A stretch of DNA of 33,605 nt from Nitrospirae bacterium MYbinv3. GTDB lineage: Bacteria; Nitrospirota; Thermodesulfovibrionia; Thermodesulfovibrionales; Magnetobacteriaceae. Below, one piece after another: positions 1,271-32,692 of the stretch. A program made the position numbers and the translations under genes. The stretch covers positions 1-33,605 of the forward strand of contig PEAB01000039.1 of assembly GCA_002753395.1 (NCBI GenBank), given 5' to 3'. Within the stretch, counting starts at the first letter, position 1. Each line of letters starts with the position of its first letter. The notes under the pieces are model-generated. The model ran no database searches, was not told the origin of the DNA, and was given only the letters and a program-made list of their open reading frames with translations.

Positions 1271-3913
1271 ATGAAATTTACCTATAGCGGTTTAGACACT
1301 GAGGCTGTTGAGATATCGAGAAAACAGCACGGCTCAAATCAATTAGCACCCCCTGAGATAGAGGGATTTTGGGAAAAACTCATCGGTAATTTTAAGGACC
1401 CGATAATCATTATTTTGTTAGTCGCCCTGGCAATAATTACCGTACTTGCACTGTTTGGTTATGCAAAGTGGTATGAGGGCGTGGGTATAGCCGTTGCCGT
1501 TTTAATAGCTACCTCTGTTGCCACACTGTCAGAACATAAGAACGAAACCTCGTTCAGAAACCTACAGGAAGAGGCATCGCGGATACTGATAAACGTGTTT
1601 CGCAACGGCCATATAACCGAGATCTCCATAAACGATATAGTCGTTGGAGATTATGTCCTCCTGCAGCCTGGCGATAAGGTGCCGGCCGATGGCACGTTGG
1701 TTGAGAGCGACCTGAGCGTCAATCAAGCCGCCCTAACTGGTGAGGTGGAACACGTAAAGAAAAAAACAGCCCCAGATGACTACACACCCAAAGAAGTAAA
1801 CGACCTTGCTGACCCCTACATGCTATACAGAGGCTCTGTTATTGAAGATGGCGAGGCCGTTATGAAAATAAGCGTCGTCGGTGAGAACTCCCTGTATGGC
1901 AAGCTCGTCAAGGAATTGGAGGCAGAGGACAGAGAGACGCCGCTACAGGTGAAGCTAAACACCCTTGCAGATGGCATAAGCAGGTTTGGCTATTTTGGGG
2001 GGACATTTATTGCCCTGTCCTTCTTGTTTAAGAAGATGTTTATAGACCACAACTTTGTCATGTCGGAGGTCTCAAAATACCTCTCTCATTGGCAGGTATT
2101 TTTACACGACGCCATTACGGCTGTAATCCTGGCTATTATAATCATAGTTGTGGCTGTCCCTGAGGGGCTGCCGATGATGATAGCCATTGTACTCTCTATG
2201 AACATGAGAAAGATGTTAAAAGAAAAGGTCTTGGTCAGAAAGCTGCTTGGTATAGAGACTGCCGGCAGTATAAACATCCTCTTTTCAGACAAGACGGGCA
2301 CCATAACCAAGGGACAGATGGAAGTATCACAGTTTATGATAGGCGACACAAGCAATTATAGCAGCTTTGATGCCGTCCCTGCACCTGTGAAAGCACTCCT
2401 GACGCTGTCCATAAAGGAAAACACAAGCAGTGTTATCAACACCCAAGAGGGTAAGGTAAATGAGATAGTCGGCGGCAATCGTGTTGAGAAGGCACTGATG
2501 AGGTACATCTTTTCAGCCCTATTAGAAAACAACAACGTAAAGCTCAACAGGTCAATCCTTTTCAGCAGCGATAAGAAGTTCTCTGCTACAGAGGTCAGCA
2601 TGGCCGATAAGATTTATACCCTTGTCAAGGGAGCACCTGAGATCATCCTTTCAGGCTGCAAGGGGTACTACGGCAAAGACGGCAAGATCGTTGACCTGGA
2701 CAAGACAGTCTCAGAAGTCTTGACTCAAAAGATAGACGAACTCTCCGGTCGAGGCATGAGGTTGATAGCCCTGGCAATCTCTGAAAAACCCATTACAGCC
2801 GATTCGCTGCCGCCGGGCTTAAAGTTATTGGGTATCATAAGCATCAGGGATGAGATACGTGCAGAGTCGGCCCAAGCCATCAGACAGGCGCAGGAGGCTG
2901 GCATTCAGGTTGTTATGATAACAGGCGATAAGCGTGAGACGGCAGAGTCCATAGCCAGAGAAGTCGGTCTCTTGCAGCAGCCAGGTGACCTCATAATGAC
3001 ATCGGAGGAGATAAACAGGCTCTCCGATGATAGGCTCGCTGCCCTATTACCCAATCTCAGGGTAGTGGCCAGGGCACTGCCTACAGATAAGAGCCGGTTT
3101 GTTAAGATCGCACAGAGCCTAAACCTCGTAGTGGGGATGACCGGAGATGGGGTAAACGACTCCCCTGCCCTTACAAAGGCAGACGTAGGGTTTGCAATGG
3201 GCAGCGGCACAGAGGTAGCAAAAGAGGCCGGCGATATTGTCATCCTGGACGATAACTTCCTATCCATAACAAAGGCCGTACTATATGGCCGTACTATATT
3301 TAACTCTATAAGGAAGTTTATAGTGTTTCAGTTGACGGTGAGTTTTTCAGCGATTATGACAGCGTTTTTGGGACCCTTTTTTGGATTTGACCTGCCCTTC
3401 ACGCTTGTACAACTGTTGTGGGTCAACCTTGTGATGGATAGTCTTGCCGCTCTGGCCTTCGGTGGTGAGGCAGCACTGAAGAGGTTTATGAGTGAAAAAC
3501 CTAAGAGCAGAGAGGAATCCATAATAAGCAAGGATATGTGGGCATCGGTTTTAGTTAATGGAATATTTATGACGATTGTATGTATATACTTCTTGAAAAG
3601 CGAGTTCATAAGGGCGCAGTTTAGTTCTGAGGCAGCCTTTTTGACAGGATTTTTCGGCTTTTTTGTCTTTGTCAACAACTTCAACAAGTTCAACGTCAGG
3701 ACAGAGTTGATTAATCTTTTCGATCACATGCTTGAGAACAAGAATTTTCTCAAGGTAATAGCATTGATCTTTGTTGTTCAAATAGTATTTACGTACTTTG
3801 GTGGAGAAATCCTCAGAACTGTTGGCCTGACTATCTCTGAATGGTTAGTGGTGTTTGCACTGTCGGCAATTATCATACCGGTAGATTTAATCAGGAAGAC
3901 GCTAAGAGGTTAA
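1271..3913 (+). CDS. PMCA-type calcium-translocating P-type ATPase
   Basis: This 880-residue P2-type ATPase pumps Ca2+ out of the cytoplasm at the cost of ATP. Features in order are an N-terminal cation-ATPase segment, paired membrane helices, the actuator loop with LTGE, the M4 motif AVPEGLPM (Glu about 298), the phosphorylation motif DKTGT (Asp about 340), the nucleotide-binding KGAPE block, the hinge MTGDGVNDSPAL (from about 623), and the M6 motif LLWVNLVMDSLAALAF, whose Asn and Asp complete a plasma-membrane-type (single Ca2+) site. The C-terminus carries further helices and no calmodulin-binding tail. The length is normal for bacterial members. The start is supported by AAGGAG 7 bases upstream. 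The neighbour terB carries acidic Ca2+-binding-like loops, so a shared role in metal or stress homeostasis is possible but not shown. An R1 repeat lies between the two genes. Confidence 0.93.
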   Translation: MKFTYSGLDTEAVEISRKQHGSNQLAPPEIEGFWEKLIGNFKDPIIIILLVALAIITVLALFGYAKWYEGVGIAVAVLIATSVATLSEHKNETSFRNLQEEASRILINVFRNGHITEISINDIVVGDYVLLQPGDKVPADGTLVESDLSVNQAALTGEVEHVKKKTAPDDYTPKEVNDLADPYMLYRGSVIEDGEAVMKISVVGENSLYGKLVKELEAEDRETPLQVKLNTLADGISRFGYFGGTFIALSFLFKKMFIDHNFVMSEVSKYLSHWQVFLHDAITAVILAIIIIVVAVPEGLPMMIAIVLSMNMRKMLKEKVLVRKLLGIETAGSINILFSDKTGTITKGQMEVSQFMIGDTSNYSSFDAVPAPVKALLTLSIKENTSSVINTQEGKVNEIVGGNRVEKALMRYIFSALLENNNVKLNRSILFSSDKKFSATEVSMADKIYTLVKGAPEIILSGCKGYYGKDGKIVDLDKTVSEVLTQKIDELSGRGMRLIALAISEKPITADSLPPGLKLLGIISIRDEIRAESAQAIRQAQEAGIQVVMITGDKRETAESIAREVGLLQQPGDLIMTSEEINRLSDDRLAALLPNLRVVARALPTDKSRFVKIAQSLNLVVGMTGDGVNDSPALTKADVGFAMGSGTEVAKEAGDIVILDDNFLSITKAVLYGRTIFNSIRKFIVFQLTVSFSAIMTAFLGPFFGFDLPFTLVQLLWVNLVMDSLAALAFGGEAALKRFMSEKPKSREESIISKDMWASVLVNGIFMTIVCIYFLKSEFIRAQFSSEAAFLTGFFGFFVFVNNFNKFNVRTELINLFDHMLENKNFLKVIALIFVVQIVFTYFGGEILRTVGLTISEWLVVFALSAIIIPVDLIRKTLRG

Positions 3914-14168: not shown

Positions 14169-14340
14169 GGGTGCATAAGAAAGTCGTGGGTTTTTTCAGA
14201 GAAGGGGAGGCTCTGCCCACTGTCGCAGAGGTTCGCAACCCCCTCCCTAGACCCTCCCACAAGGGGACGAGTCCCCTTGACCCCGTAAATGTCAGGCATG
14301 ATTGCTTAAGTCAACAGAATTAGGGGTTAGGGGAGGGTGT
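14169..14340 (-). repeat. R1 repeat, copy 6 (long composite)
   Basis: It begins with the terminal block GTGCATAAGAAAGTCGTGGG, then GGAGGCTCTGCCCACTGTC, GCAACCCCCTCCCTAGACCC, the core ACAAGGGGACGAGTCCCCTT and the tail GTAAATGTCAGGCATGATTG, ending with AGTCAACAGAATTAGGGGTT. The tail is shared in inverse with copies 7 and 8. Confidence 0.85.
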
Positions 14341-14579: not shown

Positions 14580-16751
14580 TCAGCTTTCGAGGTTTAAGAG
14601 CCTCCCGCCTTGATAGATCAAGAATGCAATGCCCCATGCGATGACAAACTGGTAAAGAACAGCAAAGAAAAACCACCCCCACGTACCGTTTTCCTGTTTT
14701 AATGCTATCCCCGCAACAATACATGGCATGTATAAGAGCACAAAGGCCATGAAGGCATATGCTGACAGCGGCGTAAACGTCTTCCTAATGGCCGTTTTTA
14801 TATTAACCACCTCTTCGGTATCCTTTGATGAGATACTCGGAATCCCAATATTGGAGAATAGATTCGACAATGATAAATTGAAGGCACTGAAGAAAGATAG
14901 AGTCATCTTCTTTATATCTTCACCAACAGACAAAGTGTTTTCACCCTTGTTTTGGTTAACCTTTGGCGCGTAGATCTCTGCCATCGACGACACCACTGCT
15001 TCTTTGGCCATCACGCCTGTGATTAAGGCAGATACGGCCTCCCAGTTACCAAACCCCAGCGGTTTAAAAATAAAGGTAAAAGAACTGGAAAAGCGTCCCA
15101 GATAAGAATCCCTCTTACTCTGTGCATCAAAAGGCATATTGAAAAGAAACCAGACAACTATGGACATGGCTAAGAGATAAGTCCCTGCCTTTACAACAAA
15201 GTGCTTTCCCTTCTCCCAACTGTGTATGAATAAGTTTTTCCAGGAGGGTACCCTGTAAGATGGCAGCTCCATGATAAAAAATGACGATTTGCCTTTAAAC
15301 AATGTATTTTTTAAAATCAACCCTACTATAATAGCTAACACAATGCCAAGCGTATATATAGACCAGAGTACACTTCCAGAGTTTTCACTAAAAAACACAC
15401 CCACAAACAAGGCATAGACAGGCAGCCTGGCGCTACATGATATAAATGGGATAAGCAGCGACGTTAGCAACCTGTCGGAGCGGTTCTCAAGTGTTCGGGT
15501 AGCGTATATGGCTGGCACGTTGCATCCAAACCCCAAGACGATAGGGATAAAGGACTTACCGTGAAGACCTATGATGTGCATAACGCTGTCCATGACAAAG
15601 GCGGCACGCGCCATATACCCGCTGCCCTCAAGAAAGGTTATGAAAAACATGATGGCAAATATTACAGGCACAAAAGACAACACAAACCCCACACCGGCTA
15701 TTATGCCATCGGATACAAGCAAACTTAACCACTCAATGCCAGTGATAGATAAGATTAAGAACAAAGCCCATTTTTTTAACACTTCCGTTACTGAGCCGTT
15801 TATCCAGTCGGTAAAGGGACCGGATATGTCAAAGGTGAGTTTGAACACTAACCACATCACAAACAGAAATATAGGTATGCCCAGATATTTGTTTAGGACT
15901 ATCTTGTCGATCTTTCCAGTAAGCTCTTCCCTGCGGATTTCAGGTCTGGTCAACACCTCTTGTGTAAGACCAGAGGCCTGAGCATACCTGGCGGCTGCAA
16001 TAATATCGCGCACACTCTCCTTATGTACATCGGTAAGATGCTTAAGGGCATCTGACACTATATCAACTGATACCCCAATGGGTTCAAGATCACCACGGAT
16101 CTTCTCATCACCTTCCATGAGTTTATAGACAATCCACCTTGGCAGCGCTTTATCGCTTTGACCTTGGGCAGGCAGACTTTTTATACTGGTCTCAATCATA
16201 GATACAGCATTTTCAATATCCTCGTTATAAATAAGACGTTTTGGTTTAGAGCGATTAACCGCTGCGCTAATTGCCGCTTCTAATAGAGCATCAACACCAA
16301 TATTCCTCTTAGCCACGGTAGGTATGACCCCTGTGCAGAGCAGTTCAGATATGGCATCTGTGTTGATCTTGTAACCTTTTTTCTCAACCTCATCAAAGAT
16401 GTTCAACGCAATGACCATAGGCGTCTCAAGTTCCATCAGTTCGATGGTCAGACAGAGATTTCTTTCAAGATTGGTAGCATCTACAACGTCTATGATCACG
16501 TCGGGTTTTTCACGGATCAGAAAATCGCTCGATATAATCTCCTCTTGAGAAAACGGACTTAGACTATACACACCAGGCAGATCCACAAGGTTTATGATAT
16601 GATCTCTATAGTTAAAAATCGCCTCTTTCTTCTCAACCGTAACACCCGACCAATTCCCTACCTGTAACCTAGTGCCTGCCAATGCGTTTATAAGCGTAGA
16701 TTTGCCAGCGTTAGGGTTTCCAGCCACTGCTATTTTAATCATGCTATTCAT
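14580..16751 (-). CDS. feoB: Ferrous iron transport protein B
   Basis: FeoB is the inner-membrane Fe2+ permease, with an N-terminal G-protein domain, a linker, and a multi-helix channel. The G1 motif GNPNAGKST (residues 11-19), G3 DLPGVYSL and G4-like NIFDE are visible. The channel has the two Gate blocks, one with GFGCNVPAIYATRTLENR and ISCSARLPVYALF, the other ending VLLYMPCIVAGIALKQENG. The 723-residue length is normal. I start at ATG 16751 because GGGAGGA is 8 bases upstream. The frame extends to a TTG at 16775 that overlaps the stop of the preceding gene, but it has no ribosome site. It is the second gene of an operon with a Fur-FeoA fusion and is likely Fe-repressed through the palindrome at 17544. 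Confidence 0.95.
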   Translation of the reverse strand: MNSMIKIAVAGNPNAGKSTLINALAGTRLQVGNWSGVTVEKKEAIFNYRDHIINLVDLPGVYSLSPFSQEEIISSDFLIREKPDVIIDVVDATNLERNLCLTIELMELETPMVIALNIFDEVEKKGYKINTDAISELLCTGVIPTVAKRNIGVDALLEAAISAAVNRSKPKRLIYNEDIENAVSMIETSIKSLPAQGQSDKALPRWIVYKLMEGDEKIRGDLEPIGVSVDIVSDALKHLTDVHKESVRDIIAAARYAQASGLTQEVLTRPEIRREELTGKIDKIVLNKYLGIPIFLFVMWLVFKLTFDISGPFTDWINGSVTEVLKKWALFLILSITGIEWLSLLVSDGIIAGVGFVLSFVPVIFAIMFFITFLEGSGYMARAAFVMDSVMHIIGLHGKSFIPIVLGFGCNVPAIYATRTLENRSDRLLTSLLIPFISCSARLPVYALFVGVFFSENSGSVLWSIYTLGIVLAIIVGLILKNTLFKGKSSFFIMELPSYRVPSWKNLFIHSWEKGKHFVVKAGTYLLAMSIVVWFLFNMPFDAQSKRDSYLGRFSSSFTFIFKPLGFGNWEAVSALITGVMAKEAVVSSMAEIYAPKVNQNKGENTLSVGEDIKKMTLSFFSAFNLSLSNLFSNIGIPSISSKDTEEVVNIKTAIRKTFTPLSAYAFMAFVLLYMPCIVAGIALKQENGTWGWFFFAVLYQFVIAWGIAFLIYQGGRLLNLES

Positions 16752-16771: not shown

Positions 16772-17509
16772 TCAATCTTCCACCTCAACCATGATGTCCA
16801 TAGCAGCAGTCCTTCCTATGGCTATCCTTAGTTCATCTATTTTCAGGAGTATTGGACCTCTGGCACCGTTGTTTAATATCTCGACGGTTTTTCCTAGCCT
16901 CAAACCCATCTCCTGTATCCTTCTCTCTTTCCTTTGATCTGAAACGTCTTTAGGGAGATTCATATTTGGTGTGAAACTTATAACCCTGGCCTTTGTACCG
17001 TTTTTTAGGAGTCCAAGCGGCGACAACTTCATAAACTTACTGTTGACCGTCTTCTTGTATGAATCCTCATCAGCATCACTAGGCGCCTTATCCATGCATT
17101 GGGCGCATATGCCATAGAGATCCATCTTATGCCCTGTAAGGATATAACCATTGACCTCGGCAAGTCTCTCCTGCATAGATTCAATCTGATTGTCAAATAT
17201 CTCTACAGTTTTTTTACAGGAGACACATATTAGATGGTCATGATGTTCACTCTCATATTCATATCTCTTTATCCCGTCACCGAAGTCTTCCTCCCTCGCT
17301 AGTCCGGCATCAGAGAGCAATCTCAGTGTTCTGTAAACCGTGGTATGACCAATAGTGCTGTCTTTTTGCGCTATCTTACGATGTAGCTCTTCCACAGATA
17401 TATGCTTCTGGCTGCTTAAAAACTCATCAAGGATAAAGGCCCTCTGAGGGGTCATCTTTAATTGCTTCCAGTGTAAAAAGGTCTCAAAGTATTTTTTTAT
17501 GTCTTCCAC
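16772..17509 (-). CDS. Fur-family repressor fused to a FeoA domain
   Basis: The 245-residue protein joins two parts that are normally separate. Residues 1-140 are a Fur repressor: winged helix (TPQRAFILDEF...HTTVYRTLRLLSDAGLA), a metal-binding stretch YEYESEHHDHLICVSC, and the structural zinc cysteines C95/C98 and C135/C138. Residues about 158-243 are a FeoA SH3-like domain (KLSPLGLLKNGTKARVI...RRIQEMGLRLGKTVEIL...ILLKIDELRIAIGRTAAMDI). FeoA normally binds FeoB and affects Fe2+ uptake, so the fusion could both repress the operon and contact FeoB, which is inference. It starts at GTG 17509 with AGGTAGG 8 bases upstream. feoB follows after 20 bases. The reading frame is continuous across the joint, so it is not a frameshift artefact. 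Confidence 0.88.
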   Translation of the reverse strand: MEDIKKYFETFLHWKQLKMTPQRAFILDEFLSSQKHISVEELHRKIAQKDSTIGHTTVYRTLRLLSDAGLAREEDFGDGIKRYEYESEHHDHLICVSCKKTVEIFDNQIESMQERLAEVNGYILTGHKMDLYGICAQCMDKAPSDADEDSYKKTVNSKFMKLSPLGLLKNGTKARVISFTPNMNLPKDVSDQRKERRIQEMGLRLGKTVEILNNGARGPILLKIDELRIAIGRTAAMDIMVEVED

Positions 17510-17543
17510 GTTTTTTACCTACCTATTCCTTACAGCAGTTGCC

Positions 17544-17594
17544 AATGAAATTCATTTTCACCTGTACTTTATCATATTAACAATGGTGTGTCAA
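17544..17594 (-). promoter_or_regulatory. Promoter and Fur-box-like palindrome of the feo operon
   Basis: On the minus strand TTGACA (17594-17589) is followed after 17 bases by TAAAGT (17571-17566). The perfect 13-bp palindrome AATGAATTTCATT (17556-17544) lies about where transcription begins. Its half-site arrangement (6-1-6) is like Fur boxes, although the bases differ from GATAATNATTATC. Binding of the iron-loaded fusion protein here would close a feedback loop. The distance to the GTG start is 34 bases. Confidence 0.6.
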
Positions 17595-17680: not shown

Positions 17681-17689
17681 AGGGGTAAT

Positions 17690-17835
17690 GCTGTTGACTT
17701 AAGCAATCATGCCTGACATTTACGGGGTCAAGGGGACTGGTCCCCTTGTGGGAGGGTCTAGGGAGGGCAAAGCCCTCCTTATTCATTTTCACAGCCTTAA
17801 GTCAACAGCATTAGGGGTTAGGGGAGGGTGTTAAG
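17690..17835 (+). repeat. R1 repeat, copy 7 (long composite)
   Basis: It begins TTGACTTAAGCAATCATGCC, TGACATTTACGGGGTCAAGG and the ACTGGTCCCCTTGTGGGAGG core, continues with GGCAAAGCCCTCC and ends AGTCAACAGCATTAGGGG. The two ends (CTTAAGCAATC and AAGTCAACAGCATTA) repeat the tails of copy 6. Confidence 0.85.
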
Positions 17836-20450: not shown

Positions 20451-21083
20451 TTAAGGTCCTGGCATAGGTGGTATAGGTATTGGCGGCATACCAGGAGGGG
20501 ACTGCATCACAGGGGGCACCCCTGGCGGTGTATTGCCCTTTGGCGGCACAGGTGTTGGAGGCGAACCCGTTCTGGGTTTCTTCTTACTGCTGTCTACAAC
20601 AAGATATCTTAAGGTCTTATCACCGCTCACGAATTCAACATACTCAGGGGTGATGGTCTTTAACGTATACCCGCTGATTGTATCTCCCTGGTGGAGTCTC
20701 CTCTGTCTTTGACCTCTGCCAGGCGTGCTGAAGGGATTTTTCTTGTCCTCTACATAAACTGATGTGGCATTGGGATACATCAATATCCCATATAGTATGA
20801 AATCCGGCGGAGGGGCCTGCGGCTCTGGTGCCTTTGCTGGTAAAACCAGCTTTCTCTCCTGATGAAACAGGTTCTTATCTGTTATAATCATGTAAGCGCC
20901 TCTGTCGTCTAACTTTTGCCCCTCCAGTATCTTTACCTCTTCATGTTCTAAAGGCTCAACCTTCTTCTTAGTAACCTTTGGGACGCTCTTCTCCTTGTAA
21001 AGCCTCTCTTCATACATGCCCGTCAGTATCAACAAAACGATTAGGCTTGCATTTAATAAGTTGAAATGCCTCAATACCCTCAT
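20451..21083 (-). CDS. GspC/PilP-like inner-membrane-anchored periplasmic protein
   Basis: The 210-residue protein has a short cytoplasmic start (MRVLRHFN), one membrane helix (LLNASLIVLLILTGMY) and a periplasmic part. Residues about 70-165 resemble the homology region of GspC: ITDKNLFHQER, then DFILYGILMYPNATSVYVED and GDTISGYTLKTITPEYVEFV. In type II secretion this domain contacts the secretin GspD. The C-terminal 45 residues are very proline-rich (PPGMPPIPIPPMPGP). No other secretion gene is nearby, so it is an orphan gspC, or a pilus-related protein of similar fold. It starts at ATG 21083 and is followed after 50 bases by the helicase gene. Confidence 0.6.
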   Translation of the reverse strand: MRVLRHFNLLNASLIVLLILTGMYEERLYKEKSVPKVTKKKVEPLEHEEVKILEGQKLDDRGAYMIITDKNLFHQERKLVLPAKAPEPQAPPPDFILYGILMYPNATSVYVEDKKNPFSTPGRGQRQRRLHQGDTISGYTLKTITPEYVEFVSGDKTLRYLVVDSSKKKPRTGSPPTPVPPKGNTPPGVPPVMQSPPGMPPIPIPPMPGP

Positions 21084-30843: not shown

Positions 30844-31476
30844 ATGAAAAAGTTTTTATTGTTGATCGTTAACTTATTGTTTCTAATTACCTGTAGTAAT
30901 GTCTCAGCTTTAGACTTGGGCAGACAACCTGGTGAAGATGCTTTCTATAGCATCATGCTTTTTAAAACAGATCAGAAGAGGGCAAAACCTGACTATGTCA
31001 TCGAAGCAAAAACACCTAGCCTAATGGAGATCGAAAAGAATCTCTATGGTAATGAGAGAGTGCTTATTTACGATCAATCAACAACACCAATCAACGACTC
31101 TTTGTCTGATATCAGGAAAAGCGAGATTACAATAATCAACAATTATGCCTTTCTAAGAATCGACAATAGATTTTATCAAGTTGGAATTAAAATAGAAGGC
31201 AAAAGCGACAAGTCAGTTAATGACTTAAGCAAAAAAGATAAACGTTTATTAACTAACGTGTTAGCTGAAAGTTTCAATAAAATTGCTCTAACACCCGCTG
31301 CCCTAGCTTTGTCATTTACAAAAGAAAGCTATGTCATTACGGCATATAAATCTTCCCTAACGGGTGATATAATAATTCGTAGATCTTTCGATACTCGTTC
31401 AACAGAAAATTATTATTATCATCAGTGTTTCGATATAGCAAAACTCGGGTTTATTTATGATTACGAACGGCAATAG
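30844..31476 (+). CDS. Exported protein of unknown function
   Basis: The 210-residue protein has a signal peptide (KKFLLLIVNLLFLITC..NVSA-LDLG) with a likely signal peptidase I site after VSA. A lipobox reading (LITC) is possible but has a poor -1 residue. The mature part starts DLGRQPGEDAFYSIMLFK and is rich in charged residues, without recognised motifs, and may be a mixed alpha/beta periplasmic domain. GAAAGGAG lies 6 bases before the ATG. The last 20 bases overlap the start of the next gene in another frame, so the two are translationally coupled. Confidence 0.72.
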   Translation: MKKFLLLIVNLLFLITCSNVSALDLGRQPGEDAFYSIMLFKTDQKRAKPDYVIEAKTPSLMEIEKNLYGNERVLIYDQSTTPINDSLSDIRKSEITIINNYAFLRIDNRFYQVGIKIEGKSDKSVNDLSKKDKRLLTNVLAESFNKIALTPAALALSFTKESYVITAYKSSLTGDIIIRRSFDTRSTENYYYHQCFDIAKLGFIYDYERQ

Positions 31477-32692
31477 CATAGAGCAGTACCTATGCCATCC
31501 CGCAATCCTTGTACTACCTAATAAAAAGTTGTACGATGATAACAATGTACTGTCTCATCTAATAGATATGGATAAATCCTTAGAAAAAATACGTATTCTA
31601 ACGGAGCAGAATAAACTTAAGGACGAAAGACATAAATTACTTGTTATTATTTATTATCACCCTCTATCAGACAGATTTCTTCTTATATTAGGAACGATAG
31701 AACAGGAAAACAAGACGTTAGAAACGCAGTCTTCACTTTGGTCTCTGTCTTTTTATGATGGTACAGAGGTTAATTTAGAATATTTCGTGTCTTTACACAG
31801 ACTATACAAGAAGCATTTCTTAAGCAGCGAAAGTGAAAAAGAATCTTTTGGTGTTGATGAAGTAAAAGAACTAATAAACACATTTAGCTGGTTGTCACGA
31901 TTATTCTTTTCACCTATATCTACACTTTTAAAAATCGACAGCCATTTGATTGTACAATTTGATATAAACATTAAAAATGAGAAGTACGTAATAGACTTGA
32001 CCAATATAATGGATTTTCGCCACAGATGCGGTATTAATATGGATAAAGAGGATATCTTAGTCACTGTTGTAACGGTTGAGAATCTATGTTTATTTTTAAA
32101 CAATCTTTTTTTATTAGATTTACCAACGCCTCAGTCTATTGCTTTGCTATACGGCCTTAATAAACACAATGACCAATATATTGAAGATATCTACAGCATG
32201 GCATTATCTGCCGCAGAAAACGCCGGTGTTTGTGTGTACTCCTTTCGCACTATCAAAGACTTGCTGGCTTTATGCAAAAAGGGATTCGAAGGCAAGACTA
32301 TTCAAATAATTGCACATTGTGATACCCAAACCATGTTGTTCCCTAAAGATAGAGGTTTTTCTATCTTTGAATTAAAGCGCTCATTGAATGAGTTAAAGAG
32401 AGATGATTTATTACGAGATGATGTCTGTATTGATTTGAACTGTTGTAATCCTTTTAAAGACTTTTATAGATTATACGAACATGAAATAAAATCAGTCTAT
32501 TTTAATCATTCAAAAAAAGATACATACCTCAATGCATTTAGTTTATATGAGTTATACTCATGTCATAATGCAAGGAAAATTAGATTTGTAAATCAATATT
32601 TAGATGGCAAGTCATATATGCATGAGGCATGGTCGAAGGTTAGACGTACTACTTACAAAGTTAATAAAATTGGGTTCGTAGAGGTCCCATAA
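31457..32692 (+). CDS. Putative caspase/CHAT-like cysteine protease-fold protein
   Basis: The 411-residue protein is cytosolic, with no signal peptide or membrane segment. The C-terminal third contains TIQIIAHCDTQTMLFP (His287), and 42-43 residues later DDVCIDLNCCNPF (Cys329/Cys330). A buried strand ending in H, then a strand ending in a C with small neighbours about 40-50 residues later, is the pattern of clan CD peptidases (caspase, CHAT: ...ATHG... and ...LSAC...). The Cys330 position fits IDLxxCNP. The first 220 residues are not recognised. It starts at ATG 31457, within the previous gene. It is one of four adjacent genes and may act as the effector of the cluster. The protease idea is inference from two motifs. 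Confidence 0.55.
   Translation: MITNGNSIEQYLCHPAILVLPNKKLYDDNNVLSHLIDMDKSLEKIRILTEQNKLKDERHKLLVIIYYHPLSDRFLLILGTIEQENKTLETQSSLWSLSFYDGTEVNLEYFVSLHRLYKKHFLSSESEKESFGVDEVKELINTFSWLSRLFFSPISTLLKIDSHLIVQFDINIKNEKYVIDLTNIMDFRHRCGINMDKEDILVTVVTVENLCLFLNNLFLLDLPTPQSIALLYGLNKHNDQYIEDIYSMALSAAENAGVCVYSFRTIKDLLALCKKGFEGKTIQIIAHCDTQTMLFPKDRGFSIFELKRSLNELKRDDLLRDDVCIDLNCCNPFKDFYRLYEHEIKSVYFNHSKKDTYLNAFSLYELYSCHNARKIRFVNQYLDGKSYMHEAWSKVRRTTYKVNKIGFVEVP

Follow-up and report, generated by a model that had tools for sequence, protein, structure and literature searches.

A Fur repressor joined to a FeoA domain directly before feoB in a magnetotactic bacterial lineage

Introduction

FeoB is always accompanied by a feoA gene or a FeoA domain in a survey of Feo operons, which mentions, with no more detail, that FeoA sometimes occurs with "an additional domain" and treats the function of FeoA, like that of the second FeoA in many such operons, as an open question (PMC8749426). 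Several described systems join one of these partners to another protein or place it under iron control. DtxR/MntR/IdeR repressors with a C-terminal SH3/FeoA domain, such as PgMntR, encoded beside feoB2 (PMC4805248), and FeoAB fusions, such as that of Bacteroides fragilis, in which FeoA stabilises GTP-bound FeoB (PMC8980893), are two of them. A third is the Fur protein of M. gryphiswaldense with its feoAB1 operator (PMC4506495, PMC3251581).

We analysed a 33,605-nt stretch of DNA (hereafter, the window) which contains a gene for a Fur domain fused to a FeoA domain, directly before feoB. DtxR-FeoA regulators are the known parallel to this architecture: in both, a metal-dependent repressor, predicted as such in our case, carries a C-terminal FeoA-like domain and adjoins feoB. 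However, the DNA-binding and sensing part of the fusion is Fur, a member of another family, its linker appears flexible and varies in length, and its FeoA part is far nearer to stand-alone FeoA. The FeoAB fusions, which we also found in two relatives, likewise join FeoA to a neighbour from the Feo operon, but that neighbour is the pump rather than a regulator, and the FeoA kind employed is a different one. The Fur of M. gryphiswaldense shares with the fusion the Fur fold, all ligands of both metal sites and, in a magnetotactic bacterium, feo genes as a target, but lacks a FeoA domain, whereas the fusion has zinc cysteines. The same genes in the same order, with a Fur box at fur, occur in fur-feoA-feoA-feoB operons of Desulfobacterota (G721) and Nitrospirota (G033, G042, G051, G028); these, however, are unfused and keep the canonical FeoA, and in the Nitrospirota operons fur is separated from feoA by an additional gene.

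Results

A Fur-FeoA fusion gene precedes feoB

The fusion gene (16772-17509) runs on the minus strand from a GTG at 17509 to a TGA at 16774-16772 and encodes 245 amino acids. The continuous frame of this length described in the initial annotation thus exists, but its strand had to be corrected to minus; the plus strand of the same interval has many stops and no open frame. Pfam matches to the product comprise FUR (PF01475; residues 16-132, E=4.8e-33, 114 bits against a cut-off of 23.1) and FeoA (PF04023; residues 164-242, E=1.9e-12, 47.5 bits), both well above the curated cut-offs, and nothing else; there is no DtxR winged helix or Fe_dep_repr_C domain in the protein. With the ligands retained as described below, this bears out the description of a complete Fur and a complete FeoA in a single frame. 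In the full-length structural model, both domains fold, and a fold search with it placed Fur chains on top, led by that of M. gryphiswaldense. The linker between the domains (C138 to P164; 17021-17095, minus strand), 25 residues long here, was modelled with low confidence, which, together with a pTM of 0.52, means that no fixed arrangement of the domains is predicted.

The next gene on the same strand is feoB (14580-16751), in agreement with the initial annotation. It encodes 723 amino acids with FeoB_N, Gate, FeoB_C and FeoB_Cyto domains (TIGR00437, 625 bits) and no FeoA domain of its own. Its probable start, the ATG at 16751, lies 20 nt downstream of the stop codon of the fusion and follows a strong ribosome site, GGGGGAGG, by about 8 nt. 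Elsewhere in the window, two ORFs of 210 and 411 amino acids (20451-21083, minus strand; 31457-32692, plus strand) had no Pfam match.

The Fur part (residues 1-142; 17084-17509, minus strand) comprises DNA-binding and dimerisation domains that we aligned to the Fur proteins of M. gryphiswaldense and C. jejuni. The regulatory site of M. gryphiswaldense Fur consists of H33/E81/H88/H90/E101 and its second site of H87/D89/E108/Q111/H125 (PMC4506495). Every one of these ligands has a counterpart in the fusion: H36, E84, H90, H92 and E103 at site 1, and H89, D91, E110, Q113 and H127 at site 2; the DNA-contacting residues K15 and R57 are likewise retained, as K18 and R60. The structural zinc cysteines previously reported at C95/C98 and C135/C138 were found at these positions and are invariant across 38 aligned Fur proteins. 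At the position of E101 in M. gryphiswaldense, the fusion has Glu (E103) rather than the Asp (D104) found there in PerR, so that its ligands are of the Fur rather than the PerR type. Identity as PerR or Zur is disfavoured by this ligand and by the best matches, and we infer that this part works as a dimeric repressor activated by iron.

The fused FeoA belongs to the second FeoA kind

The FeoA domain (residues 160-243; 16781-17032, minus strand) is SH3-like and was modelled with a pLDDT of 89. Its best PDB match is FeoA 3e19 (TM 0.79/0.90), followed by B. fragilis FeoA and then by DtxR-family SH3 domains (5zr4, 7b1y, 4o6j). By HMM and tree, the domain does not belong to the canonical kind, which groups with FeoA proteins adjoining or fused to FeoB and has the signature KRRLMDMG...RRKEA; it groups, with 100/100 support, with a non-canonical ("second") kind whose signature is MxPLGLL...DMGLRxGKxVEML.N.GxGP.LLKxDESRIA..RGxAMKI. 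Identity is 39-48% to the stand-alone non-canonical FeoA proteins in the operons of relatives and 19% to the DtxR-FeoA protein of its own genome, values that disfavour its classification as a DtxR-type SH3 domain. Some stand-alone proteins of the non-canonical kind carry Cys/His-rich loops, for example HGNRHRHRNCHYSAPCNDRHC in L100:1498-1830, which could bind metal; the fused FeoA of the window lacks such loops.

No stand-alone FeoA, and no remaining canonical FeoA, was found in any of the five genomes that carry the fusion, and four of them encode a single further protein with a FeoA domain, about 250-270 amino acids long. The one in the genome of the window is a DtxR-type regulator with FeoA at its C-terminus, encoded directly after a second FeoB-like permease (contig G000:C94, L002:1408-2136 and 2151-3197, both on the minus strand), an arrangement that resembles PgMntR and feoB2 of P. 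gingivalis (PMC4805248). Regulator-FeoA proteins paired with FeoB thus occur twice in this genome, as Fur-FeoA/FeoB and as DtxR-FeoA/FeoB2.

A Fur-box-like site overlaps the predicted transcription start

Upstream of the fusion, a sigma-70-like promoter (TTGACA-17-TAAAGT, its -10 preceded by TG; 17566-17594, minus strand) was predicted by its match to the consensus. Directly downstream of it, overlapping the predicted transcription start, lies a putative operator, GAAAATGAATTTCATTGGC (17541-17559, minus strand; core AATGAATTTCATT), which matches the Fur consensus at 14 of 19 positions. The palindrome pointed out earlier at 17544-17556 is real: it reads AATGAAATTCATT, has a 6-1-6 structure and is Fur-box-like. 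Sites of 14/19 are expected by chance about 1.6 times in the whole window and about 0.005 times per 100 bases. Five relatives (G004, G010, G014, G033, G721) have operator-like sites that match at 16-18 of 19 positions, at or near the fur start. Because a Fur-box-like site stands at the promoter and stronger ones at or near the start of fur in these relatives, the fusion is likely to autoregulate its operon.

Searching the genome with the pattern AATGANNNTCATT returned the site of the window as the only AATGAAATTCATT, and twelve other matches, mostly AATGACTTTCATT. There are about 10 AATGACTTTCATT sites in the genome (for example L105:1501, L106:389, L107:1501 and L108:1501). Four that we read share the flanks CTTGTTG..GTAAGGTCATG as copies of one repeat, so that the AATGACTTTCATT sites look like a dispersed repeat element and no regulon can be read from the AATGANNNTCATT pattern.

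The fusion was found in one family among the genomes sampled

The window comes from a genome of what we take to be the family Magnetobacteriaceae (Nitrospirota). This family includes Candidatus Magnetomicrobium (G008/L037), and a magnetochrome domain, typical of magnetosome genes, was found in 17 of its 19 genomes searched, including that of the window (16 above the curated cut-off). The fusion itself occurs in five of the 19 (the genome of the window, G000, and G004, G006, G010 and G014); the assembly of G010 consists of a single 3.27-Mb contig. The gene directly behind the fusion is feoB in four carriers; in the fifth, G006 (79% complete), the fusion has no adjoining feoB, and neither a FeoB match nor a Fur box was found. 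The Fur and the FeoB of the window are both absent from three genomes of the same genus (56-92% complete).

Linkers in the relatives range from 15 to 69 residues, while both domains align. Across four genome pairs, the FeoA part had a dN/dS of 0.05-0.22. In the pairs for which the ratio was computable, it was 0.03-0.06 for the Fur part, whose synonymous sites were saturated in the comparison of G000 with G006, and 0.29-0.90 for the linker. These values indicate purifying selection on both domains and a freely varying linker.

A first contig scan with a single protein query found nothing, and named relatives were recovered by a scan with an alignment. In a search of 396 genomes of the phylum, the matches listed for a full-length profile spanned both domains within a single open frame in members of the family alone. 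Three other phyla, sampled with 1,086 genomes in total, yielded no fusion at the thresholds used: 395 genomes from the phylum of a Desulfovibrio MAG, where the full-length profile matched separate genes in G721, 392 from that of a planctomycete, and 299 from that of a Selenomonadales MAG (Bacillota), the last searched without a positive control. No plasmid protein among the matches listed and no PDB chain has both domains, and no Fur-FeoA protein is named in the literature searched. On these samples of genomes, which are far from exhaustive and on which any claim of rarity rests, the joining of Fur and FeoA is, as had been surmised, rare, and it is apparently undescribed.

Origin of the fusion

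Two different feoA genes, the non-canonical one followed by the canonical one, stand in a row before feoB in G721 and in further families of the order, and in G033, G042, G051, G028, G058 and G721, fur lies close upstream of this feoA-feoA-feoB array, in most cases with another gene in between. Gene order thus points to a likely origin of the fusion within a fur-feoA-feoA-feoB operon, in which fur was joined to the non-canonical feoA and the canonical feoA was lost. In G008 and G009, from sister genera of the same family, the canonical FeoA is instead fused to FeoB, so that a single family shows two distinct joins within this operon. The trees are compatible with one as well as with two origins of Fur-FeoA. 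The fusions grouped in the Fur tree with support of 60/26 when a long-branch row was omitted and fell into two groups when it was included; for the FeoA tree, a single origin of the fusion had a p-AU of 0.40.

Two further observations concern a related Fur gene and the surroundings of the operon. In L096:13130-13687 (G015:C55), an ORF for a Fur close to that of the window is cut after the residues HH and continues into unrelated, membrane-protein-like sequence, which looks like gene decay or mis-assembly. The fur-feoA-feoB operon of the window, absent from genomes of the same genus, is flanked by 82-nt inverted repeats (14241-14322 and 17686-17767) that are 98% complementary; since the window holds many further members of this repeat family (near 1128, 5714, 21150, 22854, 24703, 28824 and 29167), the bracketing may be due to chance.

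Discussion

We favour, with somewhat better than even confidence, a reading in which the fusion is both an autoregulating iron repressor and the FeoA subunit of FeoB. The Fur part, as an iron-activated dimer, would bind the palindrome overlapping its own transcription start and, with plentiful Fe2+, shut off the fur-feoA-feoB operon; presumably, the protein also represses other iron genes, because no second Fur-family protein was found in the genome of the window (96.6% complete). The FeoA part, on its flexible linker, would serve as the FeoA subunit needed by FeoB, and such binding is likely because the genomes bearing the fusion lack stand-alone FeoA. Repression by the fusion, FeoB binding and iron as the signal are all features that we infer from sequence and models. 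Several observations count against this dual role. The FeoA part may never have served FeoB directly, because its kind works beside a canonical FeoA in relatives; the operator of the window is a modest match; and G006 has the fusion with no FeoB match or Fur box.

Alternative explanations must be weighed against this reading. That the gene is a sequencing or assembly artefact joining two genes would fit the draft state of the assembly (175 contigs), and an error at about 17060-17090 had been named as a possible refutation, but four further assemblies, one of them a single contig, have the same in-frame fusion with linkers that differ, so that we reject this explanation as having a negligible probability. 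The join could also be neutral, fixing only the ratio of Fur to FeoA while each part works as before. This would be compatible with the dual role, from which it differs only in denying cross-talk, and the proximity of fur and feoA in relatives and the unconstrained linker are in its favour; yet the fusion persists in more than one genus, both of its parts under strong selection, and Fur is normally needed in amounts far different from those of a transporter subunit, so that we consider it possible but rather unlikely.

The DtxR-family SH3 domains among the fold matches suggest another possibility, namely, that the FeoA part acts only inside the regulator, stabilising the dimer or tuning metal activation as in DtxR, IdeR and MntR, with no contact to FeoB. 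P. gingivalis MntR indeed needs its terminal FeoA domain for metal and DNA binding (PMC4805248). We nevertheless deem such an internal role unlikely, given the much greater identity of the FeoA part to stand-alone FeoA (39-48%) than to the DtxR-FeoA encoded in the same genome (19%) and a linker that varies freely between 15 and 69 residues, which argues against a fixed contact; moreover, FeoB would be left without any FeoA. Still more doubtful is a transport-coupled regulator, in which FeoB at the membrane would capture the FeoA part, and hence Fur, so that the amount of free repressor would depend on whether the pump is idle, GTP-bound or saturated. The anatomy would be the same as for the dual role, the flexible linker would permit tethering, and regulator-FeoA/FeoB pairs occur twice in the genome, but a Fur dimer would then need to act at both sites, and the sequence does not demand coupling. 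If coupling were nevertheless real, pump activity, not cytosolic iron alone, would set the expression of iron genes, perhaps including magnetosome genes, and DtxR-FeoA with FeoB2, also encoded in this genome, would exemplify that principle a second time.

The occurrence of the non-canonical FeoA on an iron repressor, with the canonical FeoA lost, suggests a working partner for the second FeoA kind, and the natural Fur-FeoA fusion provides a ready construct for probing its role. A Fur mutant of Magnetospirillum forms fewer magnetosomes (PMC3251581). In the dual role that we favour, the fusion would join a sensor to the machine under its control, in a magnetotactic lineage that takes up unusual amounts of iron.
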